Of a stretch of DNA of 64,000 nt, positions 19,926 through 63,951 are shown one piece after another. Position 1 is the stretch's first letter. Every line of letters starts with the position of its first letter. The DNA is from Rhodamnia argentea (Eukaryota; Streptophyta; Magnoliopsida; Myrtales; Myrtaceae): assembly GCF_020921035.1 (NCBI RefSeq), contig NC_063152.1, positions 2,114,001 to 2,178,000 of the forward strand, in the 5' to 3' direction. The translations under genes were made by a program, and so were the position numbers. Under the pieces are notes generated by a model that saw only the letters and a program-made list of their open reading frames with translations, was not told the DNA's origin and made no database searches.

Positions 19926-20291
19926 TTAACCGTCTAAACAACTTTGCTCTGGAAAGAGCAAATATGTTGCACGCAAACGCGCGAACCATAATACTGTTGT
20001 AGACCATCCTTTTAGCGCGGATTCATGTTTTTTTTTCTTTTTTAACATGGCGATGCATGTCAACAACTTAAAGAGTATTTCCGTAAGAATGAAGCAGCCA
20101 AAGACCGCGAAACAGCTCGATGATGTTTGATAAGTAGCCCGGGCTTCGAGCCAAATTTTGGCGCGTCGCAAGAGAGCCTGGCGCTCAACTCTGTAGTCTT
20201 CTTGATTCTTTTCCAGCAACCGAGCTGTAGTGGCTGCGGAAAGTTTCGATTTTTACGTCTTTTGCAGGAGAAGGGCAAAAGTCTTTTGAGA

Positions 20292-23200
20292 ATGAATTGG
20301 TGGGAAGGAAGCAGCGAAACTCGCCTTCTAATTGCACCGGGTAAACCCCCCTCTTCTTCGATCTTTGTTTCTCCGCAAAACCCCCTTCCGCATTGCAGTT
20401 TGCATTGTCGCTGGAAACGCTATCCCCGTCGATCGATTGGTCTCTGTTCATACAGTGTTCCGTCCTTCCTGATCGATGAATTGTGTGGGATTCCATGCTG
20501 GTTCTGCACGAATTGGATGATTTGATATTTTTCTTTTTCGGATTTTTTAGTAAAAAGTCTGCTGGGTGGATAGTGTTTTTTTGTTTTGTTTTGAGAATTG
20601 TAGTGTGCATGTTCTATGTCGTCCTGACATTTGTGAATTGAAAGATGGAAATGTAGCAGTCAATTGACATTTTCCCACATTTTTGAAATTCCAATTTCTG
20701 TGAATTTTGGACCGGAAAATTCGAAGGCATTGAGGTTTTTTGGTCCCTGTACTGTAGATTCCGCGAAAGGGTTGGCCATTTCTTATCACTTCGGCATCCC
20801 AAATCAGGTAATCTGAAAGCTGTTTGCTTTCCCTTTATTCGCCATCCTTGTGACTGTCCTACTATTTCACGGTTCGATCCCATCATCGAGTGAATCTTGG
20901 ATGCAACTGTTCGCTCGGCACGGAACCTCGTGCGTGAACATGTCCGAAAATCTTATCTTGCCGATGCTGCCTCTAACTACTTACAGGAAAAGCAACATGC
21001 TACCTTGTTGTCGATGAGAAGCTTTTAGAACTTCAATGGTTTAAGTTACCTTATGGATCTTGGTTTCTGGGAGATTACGTCCATAAAGGTGTGATCTTCA
21101 ACATTCATTTTTACAGTTAAGACTCAAGTGTGTTCATCACAGTTAGGATCATAATTTTCTTTTCTGCTATTTGGTCAAGATGGTTGCCTGTATACTGCCA
21201 CACCAGTTGATCCAGTTTTCATCATGTTGCCCCTTTTTGAGGAAGCTAAGATGAAGGTACCGTATATCTTATTCTAGTTTTTCATGTTTCACAAGAAATG
21301 AAATGTATCATATTTTCCTACTAATTTATTTGATCACGAGTTTGAATATTTGTTTTCTCTAAGAGATGAATTCTTTTCCATTGAAATTCCAGCATATGGT
21401 TTACCTTGATTATGCATCTGTGAATTTATCAAGTTAACACACTGCCATCTGCCTAAGCATGTAAACAAGATAACATTGTGGAATGCACAAAGTTTTTATC
21501 TCTCCTGAAGTTGGACCTGTCATCCTTTATGTATTACTCCAGTATATTTGATGTCATAATGCATTCCCCAACATATGCAGAAAGCAGATGATCCTGGGAA
21601 GTTTAGGCAATTGGATGAGATTTTGTTTATAAATGGTTACCCTGGATATCAGCATTTATTGGCCATTGCGGAGAAGTCCATGCAAGTGGTTTGCGAAGTT
21701 AAAGGTGACAAGTCATATACATCTGTATTATAGATGTTATTTACACTGAAGTAACTACATTCTTTGGCAAAAATAGCATCCAATCCAAGATCAATCTTCA
21801 ATAAAACTTACGTGCTAAGTAATGTGGCCAATAAAGACTCTTACGTTCTAAGTAATGTGGCCAATAAAGACTCTTTCTCTTTATGTATTATTTTCTGTGC
21901 CACCTTTATTCAGTAATTGATACTAGGATTTGAGAAGAATACGAAGCATCACTATTTTGCTCATTGAAAAAAGGCTTTGATGCTTAAGGGGAGGAAAGAA
22001 ACTAAAGGAAGCCATAGCCCTGGCATCTAAGTGGTAGCTTAAATTGGGGAAGAAATGAGTTAGAACTTTAAGAATCAGGGTCATTATTATTGCATAATGT
22101 TCTTGTCCTGTGATATGTCACACAAGATGCTGCAATTGAAGTTTCACACAACCAAAATGAACTTTTTTGAAAATTTGCATTGGAGCGGGCTTTATCTGGA
22201 GATACTTAATGTATGAAGCACATCTCAAATATGCCAATCTCAACTCTAAGTCCAGGCTCTATAATCTGCATTTTTTGTTGTTGTCTTTTAGATTATATGA
22301 TTATCTTCATGTTTACGGTGTAATTTGGCGTAACAATATACTGATACTGTAAGTTGCATATAATTCAATCTATATGAAATGTTACTTAATAAGCGACTAG
22401 TGAACCTTACTCTAGTTGTTACCTATAGAAACTGTGAACAAGAGTTTCAGTGAATTATGATTGTATTTAAAGTTTATTGTTAAAGCAAGAGCATTAAGAA
22501 TGTTATTGTCTGTCTTTTTCTTTGCAAGGACAAGAGTGACATATCTCTCTCTGTCTGCCTGTATCGACAGAAATTGGATCAACAAGGTTTTTTAGGCTTG
22601 ATGACACTAAGGTTCTTGCTTGGTTGTCAAACAAGGTCTGTAATTTTCAAGAAATGCAATTTGTCAATGATGGTGCAAGTGTACCAAGGGATGTTTTCTA
22701 ATTGCAGGTACACCGAGTGAAGCAGACTCTGAGTACTCTGGACAAAAACTATGCTGCCCGATCTGAGAAAGAGATGTGTATGTCTTAGCGGACAAACTTT
22801 TGACTATGTGATTTGATGAATTTGTGTTATGAGTTTACTGAAGGAGTCATGAGCAGGATCTTTTGGGTTAGAACATCTGAATGAGAGTGGTGGGTAGTTA
22901 CATCTAACTCTTACTACAAAGGGGACAATCAAAAAGAAGAAACGGAACTCTTACCACAGAGAGTGTTAATAGATGTTGCGAAAGTAGGGCATTAACATTT
23001 ATAATGGTACTCGTGATTGGATTCGATCTCTAAACTGAGTCATATGAATGCCTTTTTTGCTTTTTTTTTCCCAGGTTAATAGTGCACAATGCATTTCAGT
23101 CCATTTATGAACTAAAAATAACTCTTTGCTAAGCCAGATATTCAGGTTGATCAATCTTTATGTCTTCATATTTGACTGATTTGAGAAAGGAATGGATCTC

Positions 23201-24610
23201 AATATCTATGTAACCTACCTAGGTGCATCAAACTTGTCGTTTCTCTACTGATCACCATATAGTGGTATAAAAATCTGTTGAGGTTGGATGTTAGTACATG
23301 TTTTGGAATGTGTATAACATATTTACAGGAGCATTGCTGAATAACTTTCTGTCCCTAATTGCTTGAGAGATCGAGGGGGGAGGGCCCACATAACTGCTTT
23401 AGCTCAGACAATCTGCTCCTCTCAGGCCCTTTTCGAAAGAGTCACTCATGCTTGCTGGGTTAAGACAATTAATTTGAGAGATCACTCAGCATCATTATAA
23501 AGAAAGATGAGAAGGATTGGAATGTCCAGCTTGAGTTAAATAAAGATTAGCTTTTTGCTCTTTGTTAATTCTCCTTTATTGTTTGTGCAGTAGCTGATGC
23601 TGTCTCAATAATGGGGGAGTACTTGCTGGATGAACCTTGGTTGAAAAATCTCTGTGATAGTCTGAAGTAAAGCTCTTTACTCTTTCTTGCATATATACTA
23701 TTGCTTGATTTTCCCTGAACAGTAATGGCTATACATTTGTTGCACAATAGTATACAGCATATGCTAAAGTATTAGGATGCAGGATGATTATCTCCCACTG
23801 ACTGGTGAAAAATGTTATTTTAATTTAGAGTTTTAAGATATTTGAGGAAGATGCCCTTTAAATTTTCTACCACTAAAGTGTTTCTCACTTTTGCAAGTTG
23901 CCCTAATTACTGAGAAAACGTAAAAAAAAAAAAGTTTCACTATACGAAGAAAAATTCCAGTTTCATCCCGGCTTGGATTGATATGTAGCCAGTGGTGACT
24001 GAGCCCAGGATTCTTAATTTCCCTGCAGATTGAATTTAGGGGATGTTGGAGAGGCAGCTCATAAACAAAACCTTCAAGATGGAGCAGAGACAAATGACTT
24101 TGGATCTCCTGTAGCCTTACAGGTAACTGCAATATCACTTTCCTAGCCGGAGGAAGTTAATAACGCATTCCGCAAACAAATAGTATCAGGGTGGCTGTAC
24201 TTTGGATATCTCCTGGATTTCTTTAACATGACCTATGTTAGTGTTTCAGATGAAGTTTGAAAAGGTATTTTGACTGCTTAGTCCAGACTATTAAGTCATG
24301 AACTCACAAATTTCAACAGAGATCTTAATTTGTCCTCCCGGTAAACTTGATCAGAGGAATGATCTTTTGCTTATTTGGGTAGTCTCTGTTTCTACTATCA
24401 GAACCTGTTGAGTAAACCTGGTCGCAGTCACTCTTTCGGCTCAGGGATATTAATTTGTTGCTGAAGGTTTCTTCTATGATCTATTAGGGAAAGAGTGGGA
24501 CGGAAAAAAGGGCTTCAAAGGTTGGAAGGCAAGTTAAAAAAGCAAAAGTAGAGACGGATTCTCAAAATATCAAAGAAATGTTCACCAGGGCTTCGAGAAG
24601 GACCAGATAA
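20292..24610 (+). CDS. Ribonuclease H2 subunit B, with an apparent one-base frame break in exon 2
   Basis: Ten exons: 20292-20340, 20758-20807, 20987-21088, 21180-21256, 21581-21704, 22571-22635, 22708-22777, 23591-23666, 24029-24122, 24488-24610. The accessory B subunit of nuclear RNase H2 helps remove ribonucleotides and RNA-DNA hybrids from DNA. Family blocks are MNWWEGSSETRLLIAP, FLSLRHPKSG, YGSWFLGDYV, DGCLYTATPVDP, DDPGKFRQLDEILFINGYPG, EIGSTRFFRLDDTKVLAWLS, SIMGEYLLDEPW and the basic end TRASRRTR. All junctions are GT-AG. Exons 3-10 close in frame. Exon 2 starts correctly after IAP with Asp-Ser-Ala-Lys but must lose one base near 20766-20775 (GAAAGGGTTGG) to read FLSLRHPKSG; joined as written, it would run into a stop in exon 3. 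An alternative acceptor before 20727 restores frame at the cost of a non-homologous insertion. Complete, the protein would be about 276 aa. Either a recent lesion, alternative splicing or a homopolymer sequencing error. Confidence 0.85.
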
Positions 24611-26283: not shown

Positions 26284-26643
26284 CAAGTCAGGTTCTTCCC
26301 TCTCTTCGACGCCAGCACCGGTGGAGGATAACGCCCGCTTCCAGCGATCCAGATCGCCGGCGACCGCGTGCCGACGAGCGATTCTGGGCGACCCTAAGCT
26401 CAATTCGGCGGCCGAGCTCTTTCATCGTGTGCTCTCGTCGCGCTTCTCCCGACATTTTGAGGTGGCTCTCTTCATCTGCTTCCGCAGCAATCCCACGCCC
26501 CTTGCTTCGACCCGCGTTTCCTTAAAAAGATTCGTCTTTCAAGCTGTCGTCTTTTTCTCTTTCGGTGGCTCTGAGGATGCATCGGTTGTAACTCGTTTGC
26601 TGCCGAGAAGAAGGTGAAGGTAGTGTTCCGGCTATCGTTAGCA

Positions 26644-27294
26644 ATGAGCCTAATCTTGAGAGTAAGACACCTTTTATCAAATGGGTTCCGTGCGTTTCAC
26701 AATTCGGCTCCTGGGGTCATGGCGACTTCACGATCGAATTGGGTGTCCCGGAATCTCTCTCAACCAGCGAGGAAAGAGGATGACGATGAAGAAGAGGAAG
26801 TGGAGATAGACCCGAGGAGGCTTCCGGCCGACTATGATCCAGCCACATTCGATCCCACGGAGCATCGGAGCCCTCCGACGGATAGGGTCTTTAGGCTCGT
26901 GGATGAAGTGTCTGGGCTCACATTGGTCGAGGTGGCGGAGCTTTCATCGATTCTGATGAAAAAATTGAGGATGATGGAGCAGCCGGGGATTGCGGTCATG
27001 AAAGGAGGAGCTGCCGCCGGGCTGGCCGGGATGGCTGCGAAGACGACAGCAGCGGCCAAGGAGGAGAAGAAGCCGGAGAAGACCGTATTCGAGCTGAAAC
27101 TGGAATCCTACGAGGCATCCGCGAAGATCAAGATCATCAAGGAGGTGAGGAGCTTCACGGATTTGGGTCTGAAGGAAGCCAAGGATTTAGTGGAGAAGAC
27201 GCCGGCGGTGTTGAAAGCAGGTGTTTCGAAAGAAGACGGCGAAAAGATAATCGAGAAGCTGAAAGCTTTAGGAGCCAAGGCTGTTTTGGAATGA
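26644..27294 (+). CDS. Mitochondrial large-subunit ribosomal protein bL12 (L7/L12)
   Basis: An intronless 216-residue frame. The ATG at 26644 is chosen because the open frame upstream contains no ATG and what follows (MSLILRVRHLLSNGFRAFHN) is a typical Arg-rich, acid-free mitochondrial presequence. An acidic linker (DDDEEEEVE) follows. About residues 82-110 form the dimerising N-terminal helix pair, then an Ala/Gly/Lys hinge, and residues 146-216 are the L7/L12 C-terminal domain: TVFELKLESYEASAKIKIIK, EVRSFTDLGLKEAKDLVEK, then VSKEDGEKIIEKLKALGAKA. This stalk protein recruits translation GTPases to the mitoribosome. The upstream leader may hold an intron (GTGGCT near 26461 to TTAG at 26641), not proven. 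The promoter has site II and telo-box motifs. The alternative, a plastid L12, is less likely given this presequence and the acidic linker. Confidence 0.93.
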   Translation: MSLILRVRHLLSNGFRAFHNSAPGVMATSRSNWVSRNLSQPARKEDDDEEEEVEIDPRRLPADYDPATFDPTEHRSPPTDRVFRLVDEVSGLTLVEVAELSSILMKKLRMMEQPGIAVMKGGAAAGLAGMAAKTTAAAKEEKKPEKTVFELKLESYEASAKIKIIKEVRSFTDLGLKEAKDLVEKTPAVLKAGVSKEDGEKIIEKLKALGAKAVLE

Positions 27295-38523: not shown

Positions 38524-41500
38524 TTATGGATCGTTGTCACTCTCGGGATGATCCGAAACAGTCTCCTCAGACGAGACTTCCTCTGCATCAACATGATCAG
38601 GGCGAGGAGGATCCAACCGGGTCTTACCAGAAGAATTCCCATTTTCAGGCTGGTCTGACATCTGGGGATCTCCAAGCCCATCGACAGGATGTGATTGCTG
38701 CTCGCCTCCAGCATGATTTGGTTCAGAATGGCCTGCAGGGTCAAGACTGCATTTCATTGGGGACACATCACTTCCAAGGAGATCTGAGCTTTTCGCAGGC
38801 AGAAAAGGAGGAAGCTGTTCACCAGGACCAATGCTGGAAGCAACCAACTGAAGTACTTCAGACGATGGGGACAGTTCTGCACTCATTTTCTCTTGAGAAG
38901 GTTGATGCATCGCTGAAGATGAGGTGTTATGTGGAGCCTCCTTCCGAGCAAGACCAGGCATTGTGGCCACCGATGGTAGAAATGCATTAAGCTCAGGGAC
39001 CTGAGGGATAGAACTCGAAGCAGCATCATCACCTAAGAAATTTCGCGGAGGGAGTTGCTTGCTCCCCTGGACTTCTGCCTGGAGTTGCCTGCTCCCTTGG
39101 ACTTCTGCCTGGATGGGCCTCAATTGATCTGACTTCTTTTTCTTTTTAAGAATGAGTCTTGGATCCTTAGGTCGAGAAGGAGGTGGCCCCGGTATCACAA
39201 AAGGAGGAATAGTAGGCTTATCTTCCCCATATAACAGTCTAACTGATTGAGCTATTGCAGATACAGTGGACGGCAGCTCAGGATCTGGTGGTGGTGGAGG
39301 TGCAGTCACAGCTTCTCGGAGCCAATGGGGTAAATTTTTCTTCGAAGCACCATCATCTATTACTTCTTTCCCCTTAGAGCGGAAATGATGATTTATAAGC
39401 TTATCAGGGTCAGGCAACAACACTGTACTGCTTGATTCACCCCCATAATCATTTCGCAATTCAGGCAACATATTAAGAGGTCTACCCAAGAGACCAGGCA
39501 ACTTGGAATACGCACTCTGCTCATCATCCCTTGGCTGGAATCTGCTTGAGCCAACCACACCCACACCCACAGAACCCATGTTGCCAGAGCCGAAGCAGTT
39601 TGGTACAAATGGCTTCTCAAAAGGCATGTTCAGTGAAGTCACAGGCAAATCAGGAAGCCCACCATAAAAACGGCGCATAAAAGTCTCCCGAAGTTTATCA
39701 GGGTTATTATAAGGTAGAAGAGGTGCAAAGTGTTCATTTTGAAGGCTCAATTGATCAGAAGCACCAAAGGGAGGCAAAGGAGGACCGACTTCACCAAAAC
39801 CTAACTTCATGTCGGTCAAATGCGACTGAAACTTTGGAGGCATAGCAAGTTTACTTCCCTGTAAGGCCCTCGTCATCATCCCATCCGTGAATCCTGGAAA
39901 TGATGAGGATTTTACAGGTTTCAATGGTCTAGTGGGCTTTGGCATGGGTAGAGATGATCCATCAAAAAGCTTGGCTTGCTCCTCTTCCCATCTCGCCGAC
40001 AAATCTTCTGGAGTTTTGTTCTTTGAGAACCTCAGCCTATGATCTCTGAGCATGGAATCCCAATTCCCACGTCCATGTCTCCGGACACCAATCCAAAGGA
40101 AATCAAGTTCATCCTCGGACCAGCAATCAACTCTGGACCTCTTTCTATGCAGGTTACTAGACCCAGACCCAGTTCTCAACATTATATTTTCAAGCACCTT
40201 TCTGTGGTTCTCCGGAATCGATGAAAATGTAGGCATTTGATTCAACCCCAAAGAAGGTGCCATTTCTCTCTCTCGCTGATGACTATATCTAGCCGCATCC
40301 TCTGGAGGAAATTTGAAATTTGGCAGTGGGGGAATTGGGGGGAAATCTTGGATAGACTCACGCCCCGCTTCAACCCTACTTCCCAGTGATAAGGTTGGCA
40401 AGAAGTCATGTTGTGGAAGTACACCTTTAGCTGGAACTGGGAATCTGGGCATCAGCTTTTCCTCCACGTATTTAGGTGTCATCATCATATCTCGAAAATC
40501 AGACAAATTGACCCCAGTGTTTTCCAGCCGACTGGAGTCATGGAGGGGTGCTGGAGGATACTGCAAGCAAACAAGCACTAAAATCATATCCTATGGACAG
40601 AAATGGCAAGAAAGACACCAACTAATTTGCATGAATGAGAAGAGGATGCAGGAAGGACAGGAGAGGGGTGAGGGGAGGTTGTATAAGGTAAAAATAGTCC
40701 ATTGCTCAAAATTTCACTCACAGGATGCAGTTGTGAAACTTCTCCAGGGCCATCTGGCACCTGTGGTTTGTCCAGTGTTGGTTCCATACCCTTCAGATGT
40801 GTACCCATTAAATTACCAGAGAATGGAGCTAGGCTGAACGGGAATTCCAGACCAACCGGTCTACTTTGTCTAGCATTTGGCCGCGAAGAATTCCTCCGTG
40901 ATAACTCGACCCGATTAGCATTTGGTGCATAGAGTCCTAGAACTGGTAACAATTTGTCAGACTCAGAACTTGCATAGACCGTGCCTTCATGTTGGGGGAG
41001 CGGAAGTATGTCTGGAGGGCGGCTTAAAGGACTAACAGAAAGATCGGAATAAACATTTGTTTTTTGACTCAGGCACTCAGCTTTTGTACCATCTGATTTG
41101 TCATTGTCCAAGTCAATTGCCGAGAAAGTCCCCTTGCTGGTTTGAACAAAACCAGCTACTTCATTACCATTTTGAACATCAGGTGGACATTGAATTGTTG
41201 CCTCAGGTCCCGACAGCCGCCCACAGGGCAGAGATTCTTCAATTTGATTCCTTCTAGCAAGGCGTTCTTTTTGTCTAGCACGGAGCTTAGCACTGCATCA
41301 AAAGAAATTAGAAGTTTCAATTTTGCCATGCACAACCATCAATGACAAAGCCAAGTAGTAATCAGCATTGACATCCCTATTATCAACTGATTTAGCAGCA
41401 GAAAACTTACAGTGAGGAAAAAACATAGAGAATTGTGTCACTTACTATTTTTCCTTAAGAGCGCGTCCAGCAGGCGTATACTCCCGTTCTGGCTCTTGCT

Positions 41501-41892
41501 CAGGCACCCGTTCCTCTTCGTCACCACTCTGCTTTATGTTTCAAAGGTAAACCGACAAATAATGAAATTATGATGCTATATAAGTGCAAGTCTTTGACAA
41601 ATAAAAAAAGTTGCAAGTCGATGCATGAAAATCTCAGCCCCATTGAGATCAGAACAAATTTGATTTTATTGCCCACAAATTGTCTAATGGATCGAATAGC
41701 TTATTATATACGCAGTCAAAGCCTCAAAAAGAAATTGATTTTATTGCCCACAAATATTTTAAGATGTCTACGCCCACAAAGTAGACATCTTAAAAAGAAA
41801 TATTAATGGCAAAAAAGAACAATAAACTCTGGAGTTTATCTTCCAGTTAACTATCCGAAGGATGTGTACTGTGATAATAGTTCAAGATCGAG

Positions 41893-41924
<32 letters not shown>

Positions 41925-44900
41925 ACAGATAAAAAGCATACATCTTTACGCAACTAACTTGGAATGCAAAGACTACATGGAGGTTCTATTTATATTCTCA
42001 TTTCTCACACAATAACGCAAGCATGTCTCTATTTGAGCATAGGAATCGACTTAATATCCCTATGTATCTTATTTGAAATATCTAAACTTGTCTAATAACC
42101 ATAGATATCTACCTATTACATACATTTAATATGCTAGACATTCCTCAACTTGTCGCATGTGGAAGAATCTTGGCATCATCCTACATTAACTACACATCCT
42201 CTTGGATTTAAGATTCTAAAGTTTCCAGCCCTAACGGCATAGGAGAAGGAAGTTCAGATAAAATACCTCGTTGGCGATTTCACTTGGATGTGCGGCAAAC
42301 GCTTCTCTGTAGGAAACAGCTTTTCTGACACGCTTCCCCCGACCAAGAGCTGCTTCTTCCTCACTTTGATATTTCTCCCATCTACAAAACACAAGTGATC
42401 AAGCAATTGGAGCAAGAATCTTGAAAGATGGAGGCCCATATTTTTTGCTTATTTATAGTTACAGAACAGTCGTTTTGATGAGGGATTTATTTCTTCTACC
42501 AAAGAAAAGGATAAGCATTAATAATCTAGCATTCAAATAACTAGGGAGTTATTTTCTTCAGAGCAACGAAAAGGGTAACGGCTATCACCTTGGCAATCAC
42601 CACCCGTTTCAAGCCATTCACATCACCATGACAAAGTTAGTGGCATCACAGAGATAATGCAGTTGCAGAGTGCAAAGATCAGGTTATAATTGACATAATG
42701 GGAGTGCAGGACATAATATAAGAAAAAGATTCAAAGTGCAGAAGGTCACAAGAGCATTATAGTTTTTACATCAACAACAATACTTAGTCAAATGCATGAC
42801 ATCCTGGCACTAAAGAATGATCACTTAATCACCGATTACAACTTCACATAGAGTGAGAATAATTAAGTATTCCCAGTAACTGAAGAAATTCAGAAGGATG
42901 AAGAAATAAACCATGAGACGAGCAATAGCTGATTAAATGGAGCTCAAAGAAAGTCAAAGACCTCTACAAGCCAAGGGGAAAGATGCCTCAATTTCATTTG
43001 TTGCTTTACCTGGTCCAAACGTTTTTGGCTCCCAGATATATACATTCCTTTCTAATCAAAAAGGAAAAAGATATTCTGTCCCAACGAGAAGAAAAAAAAA
43101 AAAACTCAATAATCATGCCACCATTCTGCGAAGAATTAGACAATAGAAGAGGCAAGAAAGAACGGGGCAGGAAGGAAAAAAATCGAAAATTAACCCTGTA
43201 TTACCTCACTCGAAGAAGTCTATCCCATTCATTTTCTTCAGGAACATTAACAACACTATCCTCTTTCTTCACGGAGTTTGCAACACATACATCCTCGCTC
43301 AAAACAGGAGGTGATTCCCCTCCCTCGCGCTCTTCCATTAGCTCATCGTTCCATTCAAGGGACTGCTATGGAAACATGGAGAAAATTATCTCAGCATATT
43401 ACCCAATAGTATTTGAGCGAAAACTCCATTGAATTTATTGAAGTGAAAATACAACAAAAGAGCATGCTGATCGAGACAAACTTCATCAATGCTGTGAACA
43501 ACCTTCGAATTCAAGCCTGCTTTTTGGACAATCATAGATCTGACAAACTATGTGAGGAGTCATTGCAGATTCTTGATGGAATCATTAATCATCCCCACTT
43601 ATGTTTTAAATCAAATCACAAACTATGCAATTATGCTCTAAATCAACTCCTTACCTACTAGAAAATTCTCATGACAAATCACTGAGAGATAACCTCTCTC
43701 CCCACACAACCCCTCCCCAACCAACCAAAGAAAATAAAAGCCACAAGACCCAAGTTCTGCCCAAAGAGAGAATTGTGCTATTCTCCAAAAAGGTGTCACA
43801 ACATAAGCTCTCAAACAGGAGAATTTTAATTTACCAGTCATGACTTTCGAATGAAAAAGGTACATAATGAGTTCATAAAAAGTGGCAAACAGCAAGGACA
43901 TCCACAGAAAAGTAATCAAAACTCAAGCAATTAGCAAAATACCCCACCTTCACTGAACCAAGCATATCATTCACTGCATCTCCTTCAGCGCACTCAGTGG
44001 ATCCATCCTGAAGATTTGAACGGTCAAGCAATTTAAAAATTGCGTTATCATCCCATACAATCTTGCTGCTACCATCTGCACATTTGTCCTTGTAAACATC
44101 TCCTAAACTACCAGCTCTCTTCCTATGCTTATGTTCCGCATCTAACATTGGCTCAGTTTTGCTGTTATCATTGTCTGAAGACTCCTTGCCACCATTGGAA
44201 GAATCACCAAAAAGTTCTTCCGTACCCCACCGCAGTATATCTTCCACTTCCTTCTGAGATCCAGATTTGTTTACAAAAAGCTGATCGAGCATCAATTTCT
44301 TCTTGGCAAGCTGCAATATACGTTCTTCTACACTAGCTTGAACAACAAGCCTGTATACCAAGAGCCGATTTGACTGTCCAATCCGATGTGCGCGATTCAT
44401 GGCTTGGATGTCAGCATGAGGATTAAAATCAGAATCATAGATAATTACTGTGTCAGCGGTGGCCAAATTGATTCCCAACCCACAAGAGCGTGTTGATAAT
44501 AAAAACACAAACCGACTTTTATCTTGGTTAAAGCGAGCAATTGCTGCCTGACGATCTGTGACGGAAACAGAACCATCTACTCTCTCATATGTCTTGGGAC
44601 CAAACTCAATAGTTAAATAATCCTCAAGGATATCCAGAAGCTTAGTCATCTGTGAGAAAATCAGGACTCGATGACCTTCTTTGAAAAAAGCCTTGAGCAT
44701 CGAATGCAGAAGAGTCAGTTTGGCTGAAGCTTTAATCCTCATTTCATGGAGGAACTCTACAGAACCAGAATCAGGCTCTGTACCAGGTATTAGATAGGGA
44801 TGATTACATACTTTTCTTAACTGCATCACAATGTTTAACATTGACTGCTGTGCTACCCCTTTCCCAATATTCCTCAATATCTGGTAGTTCTTTGTTAAAA

Positions 44901-47900
44901 TTGCACGATAGTATTCGGCTTGAATTGATGATAACTCAACAGGGACCACCCGTTCAGTTTTGGGGGGAATGTTCTGCATGGCATCCTTCTTAAGCCTTCT
45001 CAACATGTGCGGAGCAACAAGTTTCTTAAGTTCCTCAACTTTTTCTGCAGTTGTGAGGTCATTAAATTTCTCCTCAAATAAGGAAACGGAAGGAAATGAA
45101 GTTGGCTGCAAGAAACTCAGCAGGTTGTACATTTCACCTAGATTATTTTGAAGTGGTGTACCAGTCAATAGTACACGATGTTGGAATGAAAATGTATTCA
45201 GCAAAGTAAACAGCTTACTACTTGAATTTTTCAGACGATGGCCCTCGTCAACCACAAGTACTTCCCATGGAACACCACGCAAATGAGAAGAATCGGCAAT
45301 AACCATTTCATAAGTGGTCAACAGTACATTGAATTTGTGGGAAACCGTTTTCCTATTGCCATCAATTGGATCACTGGCATGCCATTCATGTTGACGAATA
45401 ACTGTTCTTGCTTTTGCAGATCCATGATACTCCACAACATTCAAACCGGGAGCCCACAACGAAAACTCTGAAAGCCAATTGGGCATGGTCGATAGTGGGA
45501 CCAAAACCAAACACGGCAGAGATGCTTTAAATTCACAATATAGCGATGAAATGAAAGCGCATGCTGATACTGTTTTTCCGAGACCCATCTCATCTGCAAG
45601 TATAACATTCTTAGACTTACACCAGCATTTCCGCAACCAATTAAGTGCTTCAAGCTGGTGGGGGAATAGTGAACCGCCCTTAAGTTCATTGGGTTGCTCT
45701 GTCAGAGTAATGATCTCACTTGGATGGCCAGTCCTCTCCTTAGTTGAGTCATGCCTAGAAGAATCTTTCTCCAATGCCTGCTGTTCCAGCTGATTGAATA
45801 CATCAATAAGAATTGAAGATTCTTTCAGAATGGGTTCATCGAGCTTCTCCCATGTGCATTCATCATAAGAAAGCCCAGTCCACTTCACAAAAGCTTCACG
45901 AATACCATCTTTGGAAGAACGAAGAGCAATAATACGCTGAGGTTGTTTCCATCTCTCCTCGCAAATGTTAATCACTGACGTACCATATTTTGCCTTATAG
46001 TTTTCTAGCTTTCTCCTAGCCAGAATTTTCAGCTGGGATTCAGGTAACCAACTATTATGAATATTAGATTTCCCAACCCACTTAACCAAAAACTCATATG
46101 ATGGAGCCTCTTGGTCGACAGATGCACATTCAGCCGGTTCAGGCTCCTGATTTATGCTCTCCGGACTGAATCCCGTCCCTGCTTCATCCTGCACCCCGTT
46201 GTTGTTTTCTTCAACAGAGACTCGTATTTCTCCTGTCGTAGTAACGTCATCTTTGTCATTACTGTTCAGCTTTATAAAATTAACCGAGTCTGCCAATACT
46301 CCATCGTTTGGTCCTTTCTGATCATTTGTTGCCTTGGAAGATTCATCACAATCTTCAAACACATTGGTTTCAGAAGCTAAATGCTTTGTATCACTCTTCG
46401 ATGAATCCATGCAGGTGCAATTTTTACAGTCCTTGGTCAACGAACTCTCGTGTACATTCAGATTGTGCAGTTTGATATCACTGTCAATGCTAATATCAGC
46501 CTGTTTGTCATCAACAAGGTCAGCGCTGTCTCCTGCATCTAAGTGGATTTCGCCGGAAGTACTGTCTCGATGTCTGTCCTGCTTCTCTGGAACAAGCAAA
46601 CTAACAGAATTAAGGATGTCTACAATACATACAGAAACACGAAACATTGAACTTGCACAATTACCTCTAACACGACAACCCAAAACCCGATCGACCTGAA
46701 AAGCAGATGGTGTTAAAATGCATTACAGATGGATTATAAGATCGATCACCACAATCAAACAACAAAATTGGTCAAAAGTAGATTTACCTGCTGAAATTCA
46801 CCGATGGTGCCGCTTATGCACACCGGTGTATCATTCACATGACGGTCCCTTTTCTTTGGCTTAACTGGTGGGCTTTTCAATTCCCCAGAAAGCTTCTGCG
46901 ACAAAAAATCAATTTGGAATAAATCATCAAGCCTCAATCTTCATATTCCCTCAACATGAAATCACATCAGAACAGTAGACGAAGACAGTAGAGCCACGAT
47001 AAAAGCACTTTCCCAGCACCATTGCATGTGAAAACCATCAACATGAAACTAGCAACCAAAAGATATCCAGGGGCTTCCAGATGTCTTTAAGAAACAAACA
47101 TGCCATGCAAAAGGACCAAACACCAAACTGCGTTCACTCAATATATGGTAAGGGTTCATATCTTAGGATGCAAAGCACCAAGATTGTAAGTCTTATTGAT
47201 TTGCTAAATGTAATTGAATGCCAGGAAATATCTTATATAAGTTTGTTTGTAATATGTCAGCAATGACAAGGCCAATGTGAAAGGATCTACCTTCTGTTTG
47301 GTTGGACCATGTGAACCTTCTTTTCCTCCGTTCTCTTCTATAGCAGACCGAGAACCCCTGTTTACAATTGTTCTCTTTCTTGATTGTGAATTACCTATTC
47401 CAGGTTTTGCAGCATTCTTCTTCGATCCATGTCTCTTAAAAGTAGCAATAGTTTGCTTGCAATCATTATTCTTGCTCTTAGAAGTAGCAATAGTTTGCTT
47501 TCCATTGTCAGTCCTGCGTTTCTTGTGAATATCATTTTTCTGCACGTGCTTTCTTTTCTTAACTCTCTTTTTACTAGCACCAATTCCAATACCAACTTGA
47601 CTATCTGGACTGTTGAATCCATCAGAACATTGAGAATTCTTCTCTGAAGCTTCATCATCTTGTTCTGAATTCACCAGCTGAGAATGAGATGAAGCGGGCG
47701 CAGAGGGAGAAGTTAACCTTCTGGTTGAATGTGCTTTTGCTGGAGGTACATCTACCTTCTGTTCATCATCATTTTTCTGAGAGGAAGAGATTCCTTCTGT
47801 AGAAACCAGGGATGGGCAACCAGGCTTGATGGTGCATGGGTCCTCTCCTGGGGACAGATCTGGTTTACCTTCCAACGGCTGAACTTCTGGGGTTACAACA

Positions 47901-48823
47901 GACTTCCCTCCACTCAGAGACCTCTTGCTTGGAAAATGGGAGCTACCAAGTATTCGAGATACTTTTTCCGTGCTAGACAATGTCTTGGATCTTGACCCAC
48001 TAATTTTTGTCCGAGCTCGCCTCAAACTGGAATTGAGATGGCTTATTGGCTCAACTGAATCATTTTTTGAGCAGCACTTAGGACATTGCCATTTCCCCAG
48101 TGGAATCCGCTGGAAATGGAAACCACAAAATGAAGACAACTAAATTATCTCAATTCAAGCACGACAAGACAAATGACAGCAACTAACTCATCTAACTCAA
48201 GGCAAGACCCCTCAAATAGCTATTGAACTACCTTGAGAGGAGGATCAAGGCACTCGAGATGATAGGTCCGGGGACAGCTATCACAACATAACAAGTCGCC
48301 TCCAACATCACAAATAACGCATTCATAGTAATACTGCAAGACAAAATGTTACAAAAACCACCAGTTAGAGAACAGTAGATGGTCCTCAACAAGCCCTTAA
48401 CATCGAAATGATATGATTCCTCAAAACATCTAGCTGACACAAAAGAGGATAAAATGTTATCCTGCAGACAAAATTTGGTCACTGTTATGATTGAACTAGG
48501 GTTCAGTCTAAATATAAAGAAAAAACTAGCAGGTGCATCACAACTAAAACAGCATAGTTACGAATAAACGGAAGTGGCATGTGATGCCAAAGCAATTAAC
48601 AATACATTACCCCATCATTTCCTTTCTTCTTCGATGAAGACAAATCCGGAGAAATTTCAGATTTTAGCTTGTTCCTGGCAGAAGTCGTAGTCTCCTCCAA
48701 AGCTACAGAATTTTGTTCTTTACCATTAACCAAATCCAGTCCACATGGCAGCTTTCTTCGCTTGCGTTTCAAGACCCAGTTGCTGTTACTTATTTCATTC
48801 GTCAATGAACAGTCGTCCTTCAT
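38524..48823 (-). CDS. CHR4: CHD-type chromatin remodelling ATPase, CHROMATIN REMODELING 4 / PICKLE RELATED type
   Basis: Eleven coding exons give a closed 2,291-codon frame: 48611-48823, 48232-48333, 47291-48109, 46788-46895, 46665-46695, 43948-46586, 43205-43362, 42267-42381, 41446-41528, 40722-41292, 38524-40560. Domains in order: PHD finger at about residues 74-118 ([18 protein letters not shown] to WQCPKC, split by an intron); two chromodomains at about 588-690 ([20 protein letters not shown] and [20 protein letters not shown]); SNF2 ATPase with DEMGLGKT at about 756, DEGH at about 871 and [10 protein letters not shown] at about 896; helicase C with [10 protein letters not shown]; and a Myb/SANT-like segment at about 1755-1808 ([20 protein letters not shown]). 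This order and the long Pro-rich tail match Arabidopsis CHR4 (about 2,200 aa). It is expected to slide or evict nucleosomes in the nucleus and influence H3K27me3 and floral gene expression (from the family). The ATG at 48823 is the first in the exon; leader intron(s) probably separate it from a transcription start near 50.3 kb. Complete, no lesion seen. Confidence 0.95.
41897..41924. repeat. (GA)n microsatellite in a CHR4 intron
   Basis: About 14 GA units inside the intron between coding exons 8 and 9 (41529-42266). Confidence 0.9.
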
Positions 48824-52342: not shown

Positions 52343-55300
52343 TCATACATAGAAAACCTGGCCAACATTCAAAAGACTCTCATGAGGGACATTGAATATC
52401 ACACTGTTCTCTCGGCACATCTTCCTAAGCAATTGGTACACGTAATCTATGATGATCACCTTCAAAAAGTTCGAACCCCGCCGAGCCTTGACTACCGTGT
52501 TCCCCAGGATGTGCACGATGCCGGCTGCCCTACAGCTTTTCAAAAATTCTACCTCGTTCAACTCATTCTGGCAATGATTCCCCCGACTAGAAGTTGCAGA
52601 GCCCCGCGCACTGATATGCACCGGAGATTCGACGGGCACGATTGACCCCACCGAAGAGATTGTTAGATCCACGATGGAGGAGAGTGTGAGGCTATTCTTG
52701 TTGTCGTCATCATTTGTGGGGCACTCATTGGAGTTTGACTGTTGAGTTTGCTGACCAGACAAGCTGATCTCAGATTCCGAACACTCTTCCATTAAATACT
52801 CAAGCCGGACAAACAGGTGGAGGCTTTCGAAGAGCTTCTCCTCAAAGTCGTCGTCCTTCTTGTGAAGGTCTTTATAGCCGTATCTCGCCACGCATCGAAA
52901 CATGTGGAAGTTCTTCGGCCCGATTCGCCGTACAAGGAATCTTTCTTCTTCGGGGACTGTATATACAGGAAGGTACTTCACACAGACGAAAATGACGACT
53001 GAATGAATTGCTGGCAAATTGGTGATGAAATGAGAGAAGATAGGAGGCACCCCCCTAGCTAGCTCAGTGTACACAAGCCCTATGCCTGGGACACGGACGA
53101 GACCCAAACTGGGGCCTAATCCAAGAATATATGCCATCGAGACTTTACTGTGCATTTCAAACTCATAGCGCTTGACCGAACCGTAATGCCAGACGTACAT
53201 GATGACAAAGAAGGCTGCCGCAATCGCAAGCGGGACCCACCCTCCTTGATTCACTTTGAACAGCACGGCAGAAAAGTATGTGCCTTCAACAATCAATGAC
53301 GGCACGGTGAAGATGACCACCAGAGTCCAGTGGCACCGCCACACGAGTATCATGATTAGTATCATGAGGAATGTCGTCACAAGCATGACTACCGCCACAG
53401 CTGTACCTGTTGATGAAGAGAACGAAAGTGAGTCATCTTTGGGAAAACTTGAGAAAGCAGTTTCGGTGGAAGAATATGTTCTATCGTCCCCTGCTTCATG
53501 TTCGTCGTACTAGTGTTCACCTTTTTCGAAGTTATTGGACAGAGAATCCAGGTCAGACAATTTTAGTAGTAGATGCTTATACTTCAATTAGACCTGAAAA
53601 AACAGAAGTAACAAACGACAAAGAATGTCTCAAATTACCAGAAGCATTTCCAATTTGGGTTTGATTTTTAAATCCCGCCGTGACAGCCACGCAGAGAATC
53701 ATTAGGACCCAATTGATTTCTGGGATATATATCTGCTGAAGGAACTTCCTGGATGTATGAACGACTTTGACTCTTGGGAAACAGCTGAGTGCGAGGGCCT
53801 GCTTGATTAATGAAAATGTGGCAGATATTGTTGCCTGACTTGCAACGATGGCGGCTGCTGTTGCAATGAGGAAGACCGGCCAGTATATGCTCTCTGCACA
53901 AACAGGCAACTATATAATAGGATGCTCAAATTTAAACAAGTGAAAATATTCATGTTGAATATTGTGTAGGTATTATTTCCACGAAAGCTCGATAAGCGTT
54001 GAAAAGTTTGTTGTAAGAATCTTGAAGATGTTCGAATGTATATATACTGATGGGTCAAGGGTGACAGTATTGAGGGTCAAATCAACTAGCCAAGAAAGGG
54101 AACTTTCCTTTTAATGCACCTGAATAGTCGACAGCATTTTATTCTCATCCATTCATTATGAATTGTGTTCTTTGTGTGACCAGTTAATTGCCAGCTCTCC
54201 TAGAGAATGCGCCATATTACTGAGCTAAAGAATAAAGTAAACCTGGAATTGAGCGGTAGAATACATCGAGCACGTGATCAGGGTTTTTAATGAGATAGGC
54301 CGCTTGTCCAGAATAAGCTAAAAGAAGGGAGGGAAACACGACCACAGTAAAAGCGATCTGTATGGCCGACACTGGAAAGTGAGACAGATCGGCAAAAACC
54401 GCCTCAGTTCCTGTAAAAGTTCTGCGGTGAGCAACTATTGGAGCCTGAAATCACCAGTTTTGCATGCATTAATGATGCATCTCAATGTCCATACGTTACA
54501 ACATAACAATTGATATAAAATCAATGGAATAAGACATTACCTGTTATGCTGAGCATTATACCTCCAAGAGATGTCCAGCCATCGATCCCTCCTTTCTTGA
54601 AATAGCGAAAGATGTAAATAGGTGAGAAGGCTTTTAGAACATGGGTGTCGTACTTGCAAATGTTAATGATGCCGATGCCACCAATCAGAAGAAACCAAAG
54701 AAACACGATTGGAGCACAAAGCCACGAGATTCTGTCTGTACCATGGTGTTGTATGCTGAATAAACCTACCAAAATTATGACAGAAACAAGCACAACAACC
54801 TCTGCATAGAACAAACAAAGTGTTAGCAACTTGAGGCCAGAGGGGAAAACGTAAGCTGTGTAGACGGATAATCAACCGTCTGGAAGAGTTCACTTCCAAG
54901 AACTTGAATAATACCATCACTCATCTTGGGATGATCTAACTTAATCCCACCGGTAGCTGAGAGAACTGCCAAGTAAGGGAATTTAGAAACATAAGAAGGT
55001 TAGCCAGCTACAAAAAAAAAAAATGTAAAGACACAGGGAAAAGAGAAGTTCAACCTCAAACTAATGTAAGGTTAAATTAGTATACTGTTCAGACAGTTCC
55101 GAGGATGCGATCAATCACAGAGATTAACCAGAAATATGTTATCAGACAGAACTTGAAAAGGCAAACAATTCCAACTATTAATACTATCCCATGGAAATTG
55201 CAACTTTCGATCAACTCAAAACCAGGGTCTGAAGCCTTCAGGCACGTCCTAGTTCCTGACTAGCAGAAGTCCACTCTTTGGCTTTGCTATATGAAATTCA

Positions 55301-56483
55301 ATGAACGATGCTTTTATATGGTCATATATACGACTTTAATAGTTGTTACTTATGGTTGCATTGCCTTGTAGAAACATAGCATTTAGTTGATATCCAGATG
55401 AGCTTTTCACATTAATGATAATTAAACACAGGCTAATGCCACATCCAGGAACAGATGCACATAAATAATTAGATCAAAAGGACTCAATTTGTATGGGAAG
55501 TTACCTGATATAGCTGGAGTGAGAATCCCATCTCCGATTACCATGCAAGAACCAACAATGACTAGAATGAGGAGGATGTTCTTTCGACACCGTCGCCCCT
55601 CTAACCATCTCTTTGTCTTTGCAGCAAATGAATGTTCATCGAATACAGAGCGACTGTAAGTGGTTAGCTCCTCGTCGGTCCGATCTTGGTTGGGAATAGT
55701 TTTGATATTCGCATGACGGCAAAGTAAGGAATAAAGAGCAAATGTTCCACCTGCAAATATGGCAAAGGTCTTGAAGGACTCGAGGCTGCTTTAATGATAG
55801 CCCTCACACAAAGACGGCGATGACACATAATATCAAAGTGATAGAGGAAATAAACGCAAAAGAGGTTCATAAACAATCATTTTCTAGCATGGTAATAAAC
55901 TTAGGATTACTCATATCCTAATCTACATGCATCTGCTGAGAGGAACTAAGAAAAAATCACTGATCACTCTGCAACCCTCCTTTTCTCCAAGTAATTCAAT
56001 TTATATCATGTGGTAATCACAAGAAGTTTATGGGTTTAGTGTATTTACCTTGGCCACAGTCATTGGCTCTTGAAACGATGAAAATGTACTTAATGAGCGG
56101 TATGAGTGTTAGGGAATATATTATCACTGATAAAGCTCCGATAACGTCCTCTGGATCGCTAACGCCACGAGGAAAGGTATTGTAGAAAACGTACAAGGGA
56201 GAAGTGCCCAAATCTCCGAAGACCACACCGAGGCTCTGGAAGGCAAGCCGTAGCAGCAGTAATGTGGAAATTTTCTGAGGAAGACAAAATCAAATTAGTA
56301 AAAAGAACTGATTCATTTACCTACATGCAGTAGTTCATAGGGATAAAACGATCCAACCTTCTCTCTCTCTGTGGTCCGCAGCTTCGCAGCCTCCAGATCC
56401 ATTGGATTATCAATCTTTTGATCCAAAAACCATACACTATTTTTCTTGTCTGTGACATCGCTAATTTCTTCTCTTGAAACCAT
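52343..56483 (-). CDS. HAK/KUP/KT potassium transporter, tandem copy A
   Basis: Eight exons form a closed 798-residue frame: 56358-56483, 56049-56274, 55505-55750, 54915-54965, 54541-54801, 54243-54410, 53639-53893, 52343-53406. Family motifs are [112 protein letters not shown] and [20 protein letters not shown], with about a dozen membrane helices and a long cytoplasmic tail ending [10 protein letters not shown]. The tail pattern and length resemble cluster I (HAK5-like) high-affinity K+ uptake carriers (inference). These are plasma-membrane proton-coupled K+ importers. It lies head-to-tail with copy B and has the same exon lengths except the last. Unusual residues: Phe for the usual Tyr in [13 protein letters not shown], and DCGQGGT where DNGEGGT is usual. 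The ATG at 56483 gives the same 42-codon first exon as copy B. Confidence 0.93.
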
Positions 56484-59899: not shown

Positions 59900-62800
59900 C
59901 TACACATAGAATATCTGTCCAACATTCAAAAGGCTCTCATGGGGAACATGGAAGATCACACTGTTCTCCCTGCATATCTTCCTAAGAAATGCGTATATAT
60001 AGTCGACCGCTATCTTCTTGTAGAACCTCGAGTCCCGCCTCGCCCTCACCACCGTGTTGCCCATTATGTGCACCACGCCAGCATCTCTGCAGGTGTTCAG
60101 GAACTCCAACTCGTCCGTTTGGCTGCTCGCCTGACCTGAGGATGCCGTCATGTTGTTGGCATGCGCCGGGGACTTGACTGGCACGATCGAGTCACCCGAT
60201 GAAACAGCGGTGTCAACAGAGTTGGAGGTGCCCAAGCTTTTCATCATAAGGCCTTCCCTTGATCTCTCAGTTTGCTGCCCGTACACACTATACTCATCAG
60301 AGTCTGAACACCCTTCCATCATCGACTCGAGCCGGACGAACAAGAAGAGGTTATCGAACAGCTTCTTCTCGAAATCGTCGTCCTTTTTGTGTAGGTCTTT
60401 ATACCCATATCTTGCGACACACCGGAACATATGAAAACTCTTTGGGCCGATTCTTTTCACGAGGAACCTCTCTTCTTCAGGGACCGTGTACACGGGAAGA
60501 TATTTCACGCAGACAAACACCACCACGGAATGGATAGCAGGGAGGTTGGTGATGAAATGGGAAAATATGTGTGGGACGCCGCTAGCGAGCTCGGTATACA
60601 CGAGCCCAATCCCTGGCACTCGAACCAGTCCCAGGCTCGGCCCGAGCCCGAGGATCCATGCCATGGAGACCTTACTGTGCATCTCAAACTCGTATCGCTT
60701 CACTGTTCCGTAATGCCAAACGCACATAACGACAAGAAAAGCTGCCGCGATCACTAGAGGGACCCATCCGCCTTGATCAACCTTGAAAAGCACGGCGGAG
60801 AAGTACGTGCACTCCACCACCAGCGACAAACCAGTGAAGATCAGGACCAGAATCCAGTGGCAATGCCATACCAAAAGCATGATCAGAATCATAAGCAAGG
60901 TGGTCGCGAGCATGACTATTACCACAGCAGTTCCTGTTAATGTTGCACGAACAATCTATCAGGATTTGTTTATAGAATGAAAGATGCACGACAATTACAG
61001 GACATTCGGGTAAAGTTACCGTAGGCATTTCCAATTTGGCTTTGATTCTTAAACCCAGCAGTCACGGCAATGCAAAGAATCATCAAGATCCAGTTAATAT
61101 CCGGAATATATATCTGCCCCAAGAACTTCTTTGATGTGTGAACTACTTTCACTCTGGGGAAACAGCCTAGCGCAAGTGCCTGCTTGATTATCGAAAAAGT
61201 GGCGGATATTGTGGCCTGACTTGCAACTATAGCCGCTAAAGTTGCAATGATGAATACTGGCCAATAGATGCTATCTGTAAAATGAACAGCAATTAACATT
61301 AATAGATACATACACATTTCCTGTTTTGGGAAGAACTACAAGCAAGTCCTAGAACTTGTCACGATAATACACTCGAGTCCTGAAACTGTCATTTCGTACA
61401 TTCAAGTCTCAAAAACTTGCAGCTTTGATGCACTCGAATCATTTCGTTAACTCCAGTAGTTTTAAGTGAACGTAACCTACCATGTGGCTCTTTTATGGCA
61501 TTTTGTCAATCTTTTGTAGCTGTTACACAAATATCACGTAGATTTCCCAGCCGCTAAAATTCCAGAGTTAACAGGAGGATTAAAGTGGACGATTGTGACA
61601 GTTTTAGTAGTTAAATGCACAAAAATATCAACTCAGTGAGTTTTGGGATTTGAACTACAATTGTCCCCCTTTTTCAACTTAAGTAAACACAGTGAGTCTT
61701 TTTGTCCATCTATAGTTGCACTGAACATTCTTCAACAGAATGACTCAGTCAAAGATTATACCGTGACAGTGTATTCACTTCTCAGGCACAATTTTCATTC
61801 GTAAAAGGGGGCCAGAGTGCTTGTGGCAAACCTGGAATTGAACGATAAAATACATCAATAACGTGGTCCTTGTTCTTCATCAAGTATGCTGCTTGTCCTG
61901 TGTACGCTAAAAGAAGGCAAGGAAAGACTACTACTGTAAAAGCAATCTGTACAGCTAACACTGGAAAATGGGCTAGATCCGCAAAGAGGGCCTCGGTTCC
62001 TATCATAGGATCAAACAGTATGAAGAAATATTTAGTCCAACTAGAGAATGTTAGGTGTTGCCAAAGAATAAAGTGACGGTATTTTAGGTAACTAGAGAAT
62101 AATGTTAGCTTACCTGTCATGCAAAGCAAAATGCCTCCAAGTGAGGTCCAACGATCCTTTCCTCCCCTTTTAAAGTACCGGTATATGTGCACAGGGGAAA
62201 AAGCTCTCAGCACACTGCTATCGTATTTGAAGATGTTGATTATGCCAATCGCACCAATTAAAATGAACCAAAGCAGCACTATCGGGGCGAAGAGCCAACC
62301 AACTTTATCAGTACCATAGTGTTGCACGCTAAAGAGACCTACCAATATTATGACAGCCACGAGAACCACGACATCTGGGTCAAAAAACCACACAAATCCT
62401 TTAGAAAATTGCAAATCGACAAGCCAATTCAATAATAATGTCCAAGACGTGAGCTGTACCATTGCTCATGCCCGGATGATCTACCTTGATCCCACCAGCG
62501 GCCGAAAGAACTGCTTGAAAACGGTGGCATCAGAAGTGTCAAAGTAAAATTGCAGGCACTTCATTAACATAAAAGAAATCAGGCTTGGACGGCCAATGTA
62601 GTTGGACAAAGTTTAAAGAGGTAAAGGAAATAACCAGACAAGGAGTGACAAGATACAACCACCACCATATAGGACACTTTTAGACAAATGAAAACCAGTA
62701 GATTTTCTGATGCTTCAACGCTTACACAGCATAAGGAGATCATGTGTCCAGAAGCAACACTGTACTGGTGGAGTGGATCAACCTTCATTGTTGTCCTCAG

Positions 62801-63951
62801 AAAAGTGGACAAACAGTATGGCGCGGCACATGGTTTCTGGAATTATTAATCATGCAGAAAGAAAGATTTACCTGATATAGCTGGGGTGAGAATCCCATCA
62901 CCAATCACCATGCAAGTGCCCACAAGGACGAGCATAAGAAGCGAATTCTTCCTGGATGCTTGTCTTTCCAACCACCCCTTGGTCTTCGCAGCAAAGGATT
63001 TCTCAGGGAATGTGGTACGGCTATATGTCGTTAGCTCCTCGTCAGTCCTATGCTGGTTTGGAATTGTTTTGATTTTCGCATGTCGACAGAGCAATGAGTA
63101 AAGAGCGAATGTTCCACCTACGCAATGAGGAGGATGGTCACAATTACTGCAACGAGCATCCTTAACATGTGTCTTGGTCCATCCCTTTGTCAGTGTCAAA
63201 AACAGTGAACTAATCGCTCCTAAAAAATGATATCAGCTTACCTTGTCCATTGTCATTCGCTCTGCACACCACAAAAACGTACTTGAGGAGCGGAATGAGA
63301 GTAAGAGAATATATGATCAGCGATAGAGCTCCGACCACATCTTCCGTATCGTCTATCCCCCTTGGAAATGTATTGTAAAAGACATACAGAGGGGACGTGC
63401 CAAGATCCCCATAAACCACCCCAAGACTTTGGAATGCAAGCCGAAGAAGCAACAATGCTGAAAATTTCTGAAGAGCACATCAAGTCAACTGCCAGAATTC
63501 ATCGGAAAACCAGTGGATGATACATGTTTTGCATCATTTATTCACTTGCAGCCTCAATTTATAGATATTGACTGATGACAACACATCTTATATCCAAGAC
63601 CAACAAAAGAAGAAATCATAAACTAAGCGGATGAAGATCAAATGGGAGCAGAAAAATGTTGTCTATACACACTGCAAATTAGTAAAAGCTAAATAGAACA
63701 TCCCAAACTTTGCAATACAGAACATAAATTGAATCAATATGTTGCCCATTAAAGCAGTTAGTCCTCTTCTCTTAAGCAACAAAAGCATACGCTGTCTGGA
63801 AAAAAGTTGAGAGATCCCAAATTACCTTTTCTCTGTACATGTTTCTGAGCCTACCAGCCTCCTCATCCATGGGCTGATCAAGCTTTTGATCCAAAAACCA
63901 CATGCCGCCTTTGTTTTCAGTTTCATCATCCATTTCGACCCTCGAATCCAT
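59900..63951 (-). CDS. HAK/KUP/KT potassium transporter, tandem copy B
   Basis: Eight exons form a closed 788-residue frame: 63826-63951, 63242-63467, 62872-63117, 62460-62510, 62114-62374, 61832-61999, 61020-61274, 59900-60933. Motifs: [139 protein letters not shown] and the end [10 protein letters not shown]. The architecture is about 12 membrane helices with a long soluble tail, typical length for cluster I HAK5-like high-affinity K+ carriers of the plasma membrane (cluster inferred). Exons 1-7 equal those of copy A base for base in length (126, 226, 246, 51, 261, 168, 255), so the pair arose by tandem duplication. B keeps the usual Tyr in [13 protein letters not shown] and is closer to family consensus than A, suggesting it retains the ancestral role. 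Intron 6 (61275-61831) is longer than in A and holds a repeat. Promoter and leader lie at or beyond the right edge. Confidence 0.94.
61325..61665. mobile_element. Probable MITE-like insertion in intron 6 of transporter copy B
   Basis: The segment carries repeated TCCTGAAACTGTCA/CAAGTCTCAAAAACTTG units on the left and, reverse-complemented on the right, AACTACTAAAACTGTCACAA, giving weak inverted termini. The corresponding intron of copy A (53894-54242) is about 210 bp shorter and lacks it, so insertion after the duplication is likely. Confidence 0.45.

Follow-up and report, generated by a model that had tools for sequence, protein, structure and literature searches.

The RNase H2 of Arabidopsis is described as consisting of the subunits A, B, and C, and Arabidopsis mutants without active RNase H2 build up rNMPs in their nuclear DNA, as set out in one report (PMC10489836). 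A second report (PMC8430855) describes mutations in RNase H2 subunits that rescue the hydroxyurea sensitivity of wee1. Since RNase H2 mutants have been reported in Arabidopsis, it is conceivable that a plant could lack subunit B. The gene described below resembles the subunits B of known structure in both domains, with residues 1-152 of its product aligned, but differs from them in that, as recorded, it cannot yield the full protein when spliced at the canonical sites. If the break that we describe is real, no active RNase H2 would be expected, as in the Arabidopsis loss-of-function mutants; in contrast to those mutants, the state of the gene here is known from the sequence of one assembly alone.

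The gene lies in the 64-kb stretch of DNA analyzed here (the window, 2114001-2178000 of contig C3) and comprises ten exons between 20292 and 24610 on the plus strand. We will refer to it as RNASEH2B. The features of the gene model are as follows, with intron 1 given in its canonical reading.

20292..20340, plus strand: exon 1, 49 nt, encoding MNWWEGSSETRLLIAP plus one base, with donor CGG/gtaaac
20341..20757, plus strand: intron 1, canonical reading, gtaaac...tgtag
20758..20807, plus strand: exon 2, 50 nt, behind ctgtactgtag, with the DSAKG frame at its start and FLSLRHPKSG in another frame
20987..21088, plus strand: exon 3, in which the canonical frame stops early at 21026-21028
21180..21256, plus strand: exon 4
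21581..21704, plus strand: exon 5
22571..22635, plus strand: exon 6
22708..22777, plus strand: exon 7
23591..23666, plus strand: exon 8
24029..24122, plus strand: exon 9
24488..24610, plus strand: exon 10, including the stop codon

All introns other than intron 1 have GT-AG ends, and their junctions are in phase. Counted from the F of FLSL, the frame stays open through 252 residues until the stop codon at 24610, and the complete open read of 780 nt is made up of seven codons before FLSL, these 252 residues, and the stop. Upstream of exon 2, the FLSL frame is open back to 20687 only and contains no ATG.

The 252-residue product matched PF17745, the N-terminal triple-barrel domain, at 37.9 bits (cut-off 25.2), and PF09468, the wHTH domain, at 48.4 bits (cut-off 25.2), the latter over residues 57-155 and positions 1-111 of the 163 in the profile. 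When compared with proteins of solved structure, the best match was 3kio_B (E 1.6e-19, query residues 1-152), and each of the 5 distinct solved sequences found at E up to 0.01 is named subunit B (3kio_B, 3p5j_B, 3puf_B, 3p56_B, and 8yjz_G). Because of these Pfam domains and solved-chain matches, the gene can be solidly assigned as RNase H2 subunit B of the Ydr279 family, the identity already proposed for it in a preliminary description made from the sequence. That description further held exons 3-10 to be in frame and conserved. They are in frame throughout, but conservation could be shown for residues 1-155 of 252, roughly as far as exon 7 reaches, and exons 8-10 can be said to be open; the last 97 residues lie outside the Pfam matches. 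The C-terminus of the product, NIKEMFTRASRR, we take by eye to be possibly PIP-like, that is, a PCNA-binding motif.

We searched the genome assembly (346.7 Mb in 74 contigs), scoring only the best candidates, for further copies of the gene. The size of the genome, together with its intron structure and gene content, points to a plant. Among these candidates, all eight matches to the protein were exons of the RNASEH2B locus, and the DNA of 20280-20860 (581 nt, covering exons 1 and 2) gave a single match, which was itself. As one copy was found, there is no allele or paralogue with which the locus could be compared. A genome search with PF09468 missed even the known RNASEH2B and says nothing about absence. 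In prokaryotic genomes (GTDB), 47 stretches fit the peptide pattern of the protein from FLSL onward and none was confirmed; in viral genomes (IMG/VR), 2 stretches fit and none was confirmed. The family of subunit C, PF08615, gave two matches on contig C9 (G000:C9:16040160-16041869), both above the cut-off and free of internal stops.

Examination of exons 1 to 3 revealed that their phases cannot be reconciled with the recorded length of exon 2. Exon 1 leaves one base over, and exon 3 likewise starts with the first base of a codon already supplied; exon 2, which lies between two junctions of the same phase, must therefore have a length divisible by three. It is 50 nt long, in net terms one base too few or two too many. 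The FLSLRHPKSG frame runs through exon 2 in codons from 20759, leaves one base over at its end, and enters exon 3 in phase. This phase argument does not depend on the plant homologues cited in the preliminary description, and the exon-length arithmetic bears out the one-base register problem to which that description had drawn attention. Canonical joining likewise reproduces the exon boundaries given there, with exon 1 closing on IAP and a single further base and with DSAKG directly after the acceptor at 20758.

Canonical splicing reads IAPDSAKG and then departs from the conserved frame. The resulting product, MNWWEGSSETRLLIAPDSAKGLAISYHFGIPNQ..., ends with a stop as its codon 47, which lies within exon 3 (21026-21028) and upstream of seven exon junctions, and with the canonical splice sites there is no single open frame from start to stop. 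As recorded, exon 2 would carry a net deficit of one base, or a gain of two, between the acceptor and the FLSL block. The interval in which the break must fall runs from the start of the exon to that block, at about 20758-20779; the earlier assertion of a break in register holds, but the break cannot be narrowed down to GAAAGGGTTGG. No repeats of at least 12 nt were reported in 20280-21100. An event of this sort, in which one base breaks the frame of a known gene in a single record, is ordinary.

The reading of a break depends on whether exon 1 is joined to exon 2 at the canonical sites. The donor at 20340 has the highest score, 4.68, among the GT and GC sites scored in 20300-20699. With a score of 2.26, the acceptor at 20758 falls inside the leave-one-out range found for the eight other acceptors of the gene (-0.57 to 10.36), on a matrix built from only eight introns. 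Three AG sites within intron 1 outscore this acceptor, at 20596 (5.62), 20456 (5.49), and 20551 (4.86), and none of them serves as acceptor in the 29 joins of exons 1 and 2, with GT or GC donors, that keep the frame.

The junction was also compared with the family profile by joining exon 1 and DSAKG to the FLSL frame, with an X for one unknown residue at the break, and matching the product to PF17745. With the canonical N-terminus, the match covered profile positions 1-79 at 44.2 bits, compared to positions 13-79 at 40.9 bits for the sequence from FLSL alone. The gain is only 3.3 bits, but none of nine shuffled N-termini reached position 1 of the profile; their matches started at 12 or 13 and reached at most 41.5 bits. 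An N-terminus of the same composition does not, as a rule, give the extension, small as the gain in bits is. Since exon 1 and DSAKG extend the Pfam match and the shuffles do not, the profile comparison suggests that the canonical junction is probably correct.

The break is probably one at the level of bases, by which we mean a real indel and a consensus error taken together, rather than the product of a misread splice site. We lean slightly toward a real small indel over a consensus error, as a leaning and not as a result. Under the first of these, to which we give a little less than an even chance, the sequenced plant or line would carry a loss-of-function allele of RNASEH2B that arose recently and is perhaps not fixed in the species. 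In keeping with this, single-base runs in 20758-20780 reach 3 nt at most, and the frame survives longer runs in the same gene: exons 4, 6, 7, 8, and 10 hold seven runs of 5-6 nt, and the frame is open through all of them, three of the seven (in exons 4, 6, and 7) lying in the part with matched homology. Because the region of the break is without a run longer than 3 nt and the longer runs are open, an error in run length is not the obvious cause, and the homopolymer error suggested in the preliminary description loses weight. A real indel also fits the finding of just a single copy of the locus in the assembly. Such an indel would nevertheless have to be very recent, as no second lesion was found in the gene model, and the presence in the genome of open exons of the RNASEH2C family does not give the appearance of a complex lost as a whole. 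The recent inactivating lesion that had been suggested is compatible with the evidence, as is a consensus error.

Were the indel real, the canonical mRNA would be expected to be a target of nonsense-mediated decay, and its decay to leave no subunit B and hence no assembled RNase H2. The plant would then be a natural test case for the way in which plants cope with ribonucleotides in their DNA.

A consensus error, with the gene intact in the plant and the assembly record wrong by one base, is a serious possibility as well, though we hold it with more doubt. A lone one-base break in one conserved gene is how a base-level assembly error usually presents itself, and the remainder of the gene model is intact, as a consensus error would also leave it. 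Set against this are the short longest run of 3 nt at the break, when the runs of 5-6 nt in five other exons are open, and the condition of two neighboring K+ transporter genes, no block of which was split into two frames. Their comparison as paralogues gave eight main same-frame blocks of 58-85% identity, none of them seen split, together with further wrong-frame matches, most of lower identity. Six neighboring open blocks (8,175 nt) contain a further 30 runs of 5-6 nt; since these blocks were picked as open, the count is biased and is weak evidence. A consensus error would matter for annotation only, where automatic models would be truncated or given an invented odd splice site.

It is unlikely, in our estimation, that the gene is intact and that intron 1 is spliced otherwise, by the use of a donor at 20482 with the acceptor at 20758 or of an acceptor at 20727, the non-standard acceptor put forward in the preliminary description. 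These routes would add one of two hypothetical exon extensions.

20341..20482, plus strand: hypothetical extension of exon 1 to a donor at 20482 (ATT/gtgtgg), open and frame-keeping with the acceptor at 20758
20727..20757, plus strand: hypothetical extension of exon 2 from an acceptor at 20727, open

Both versions are open to the normal stop. Among the 15 GT-AG pairs that keep the frame, 20482/20758 has the highest summed score, 5.08 (2.82 + 2.26), where the canonical pair sums to 6.94; it would yield a protein of 323 residues, 48 of them between IAP and FRERVGHFLSL. The acceptor at 20727 with the donor at 20340 ranks second among the 15, with a sum of 0.66. Neither version, however, gives the N-terminal extension of the PF17745 match, which begins at profile position 13 in both (13-79 at 40.6 bits for 20482 and at 40.8 bits for 20727), and the extra residues would be expected to fall within the small barrel domain. 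The acceptor at 20727 is in addition poor, with a score of -4.02 and a pyrimidine fraction of 0.41, below the 0.53-0.76 spanned by the nine acceptors in the gene model. A non-standard acceptor at 20727 is therefore weakened by its score and pyrimidine content, and the donor at 20482 gives the better-scoring frame-keeping route. Splice routes that save the frame are possible but unneeded.

That a real break has become fixed in the species we consider quite improbable; in that case either the donor at 20482 would rescue the gene, placing about 48 residues, nearly all of them from former intron, inside the RNase H2B barrel, or the species would live without nuclear RNase H2. Least probable is a tiny unrecognized exon within intron 1 that restores the phase, for although 5 of the 77 acceptor-donor pairs tested in the intron gave a phase-restoring open insert, and the best of these (20596-20599, sum 5.84) uses the top-scoring acceptor of the intron, that insert measures just 4 nt, the second-best has 7 nt and sums to 2.33, the remaining three of 25-37 nt score below -4, and an extra exon would give up the DSAKG frame despite its fit to the family profile.

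The window as a whole gave no Rfam family that reached its gathering score. An open block at 26575-27294 on the plus strand, about 2 kb downstream of RNASEH2B, contains a ribosomal protein L7/L12 C-terminal domain (PF00542). On the minus strand, at about 38524-48139, is a chromatin-remodeling gene whose limits on both sides are a guess; its chromo, SNF2, and helicase C domains are found in an open block of 949 residues (43873-46722), and from the order of these domains we presume the gene to be CHD3-like. The two K+ transporter genes are arranged in tandem at 52343-56289 and 59900-63232, also on the minus strand. Their last exons match PF02705 and PF22776, and we take both genes to be of the KUP/HAK type.
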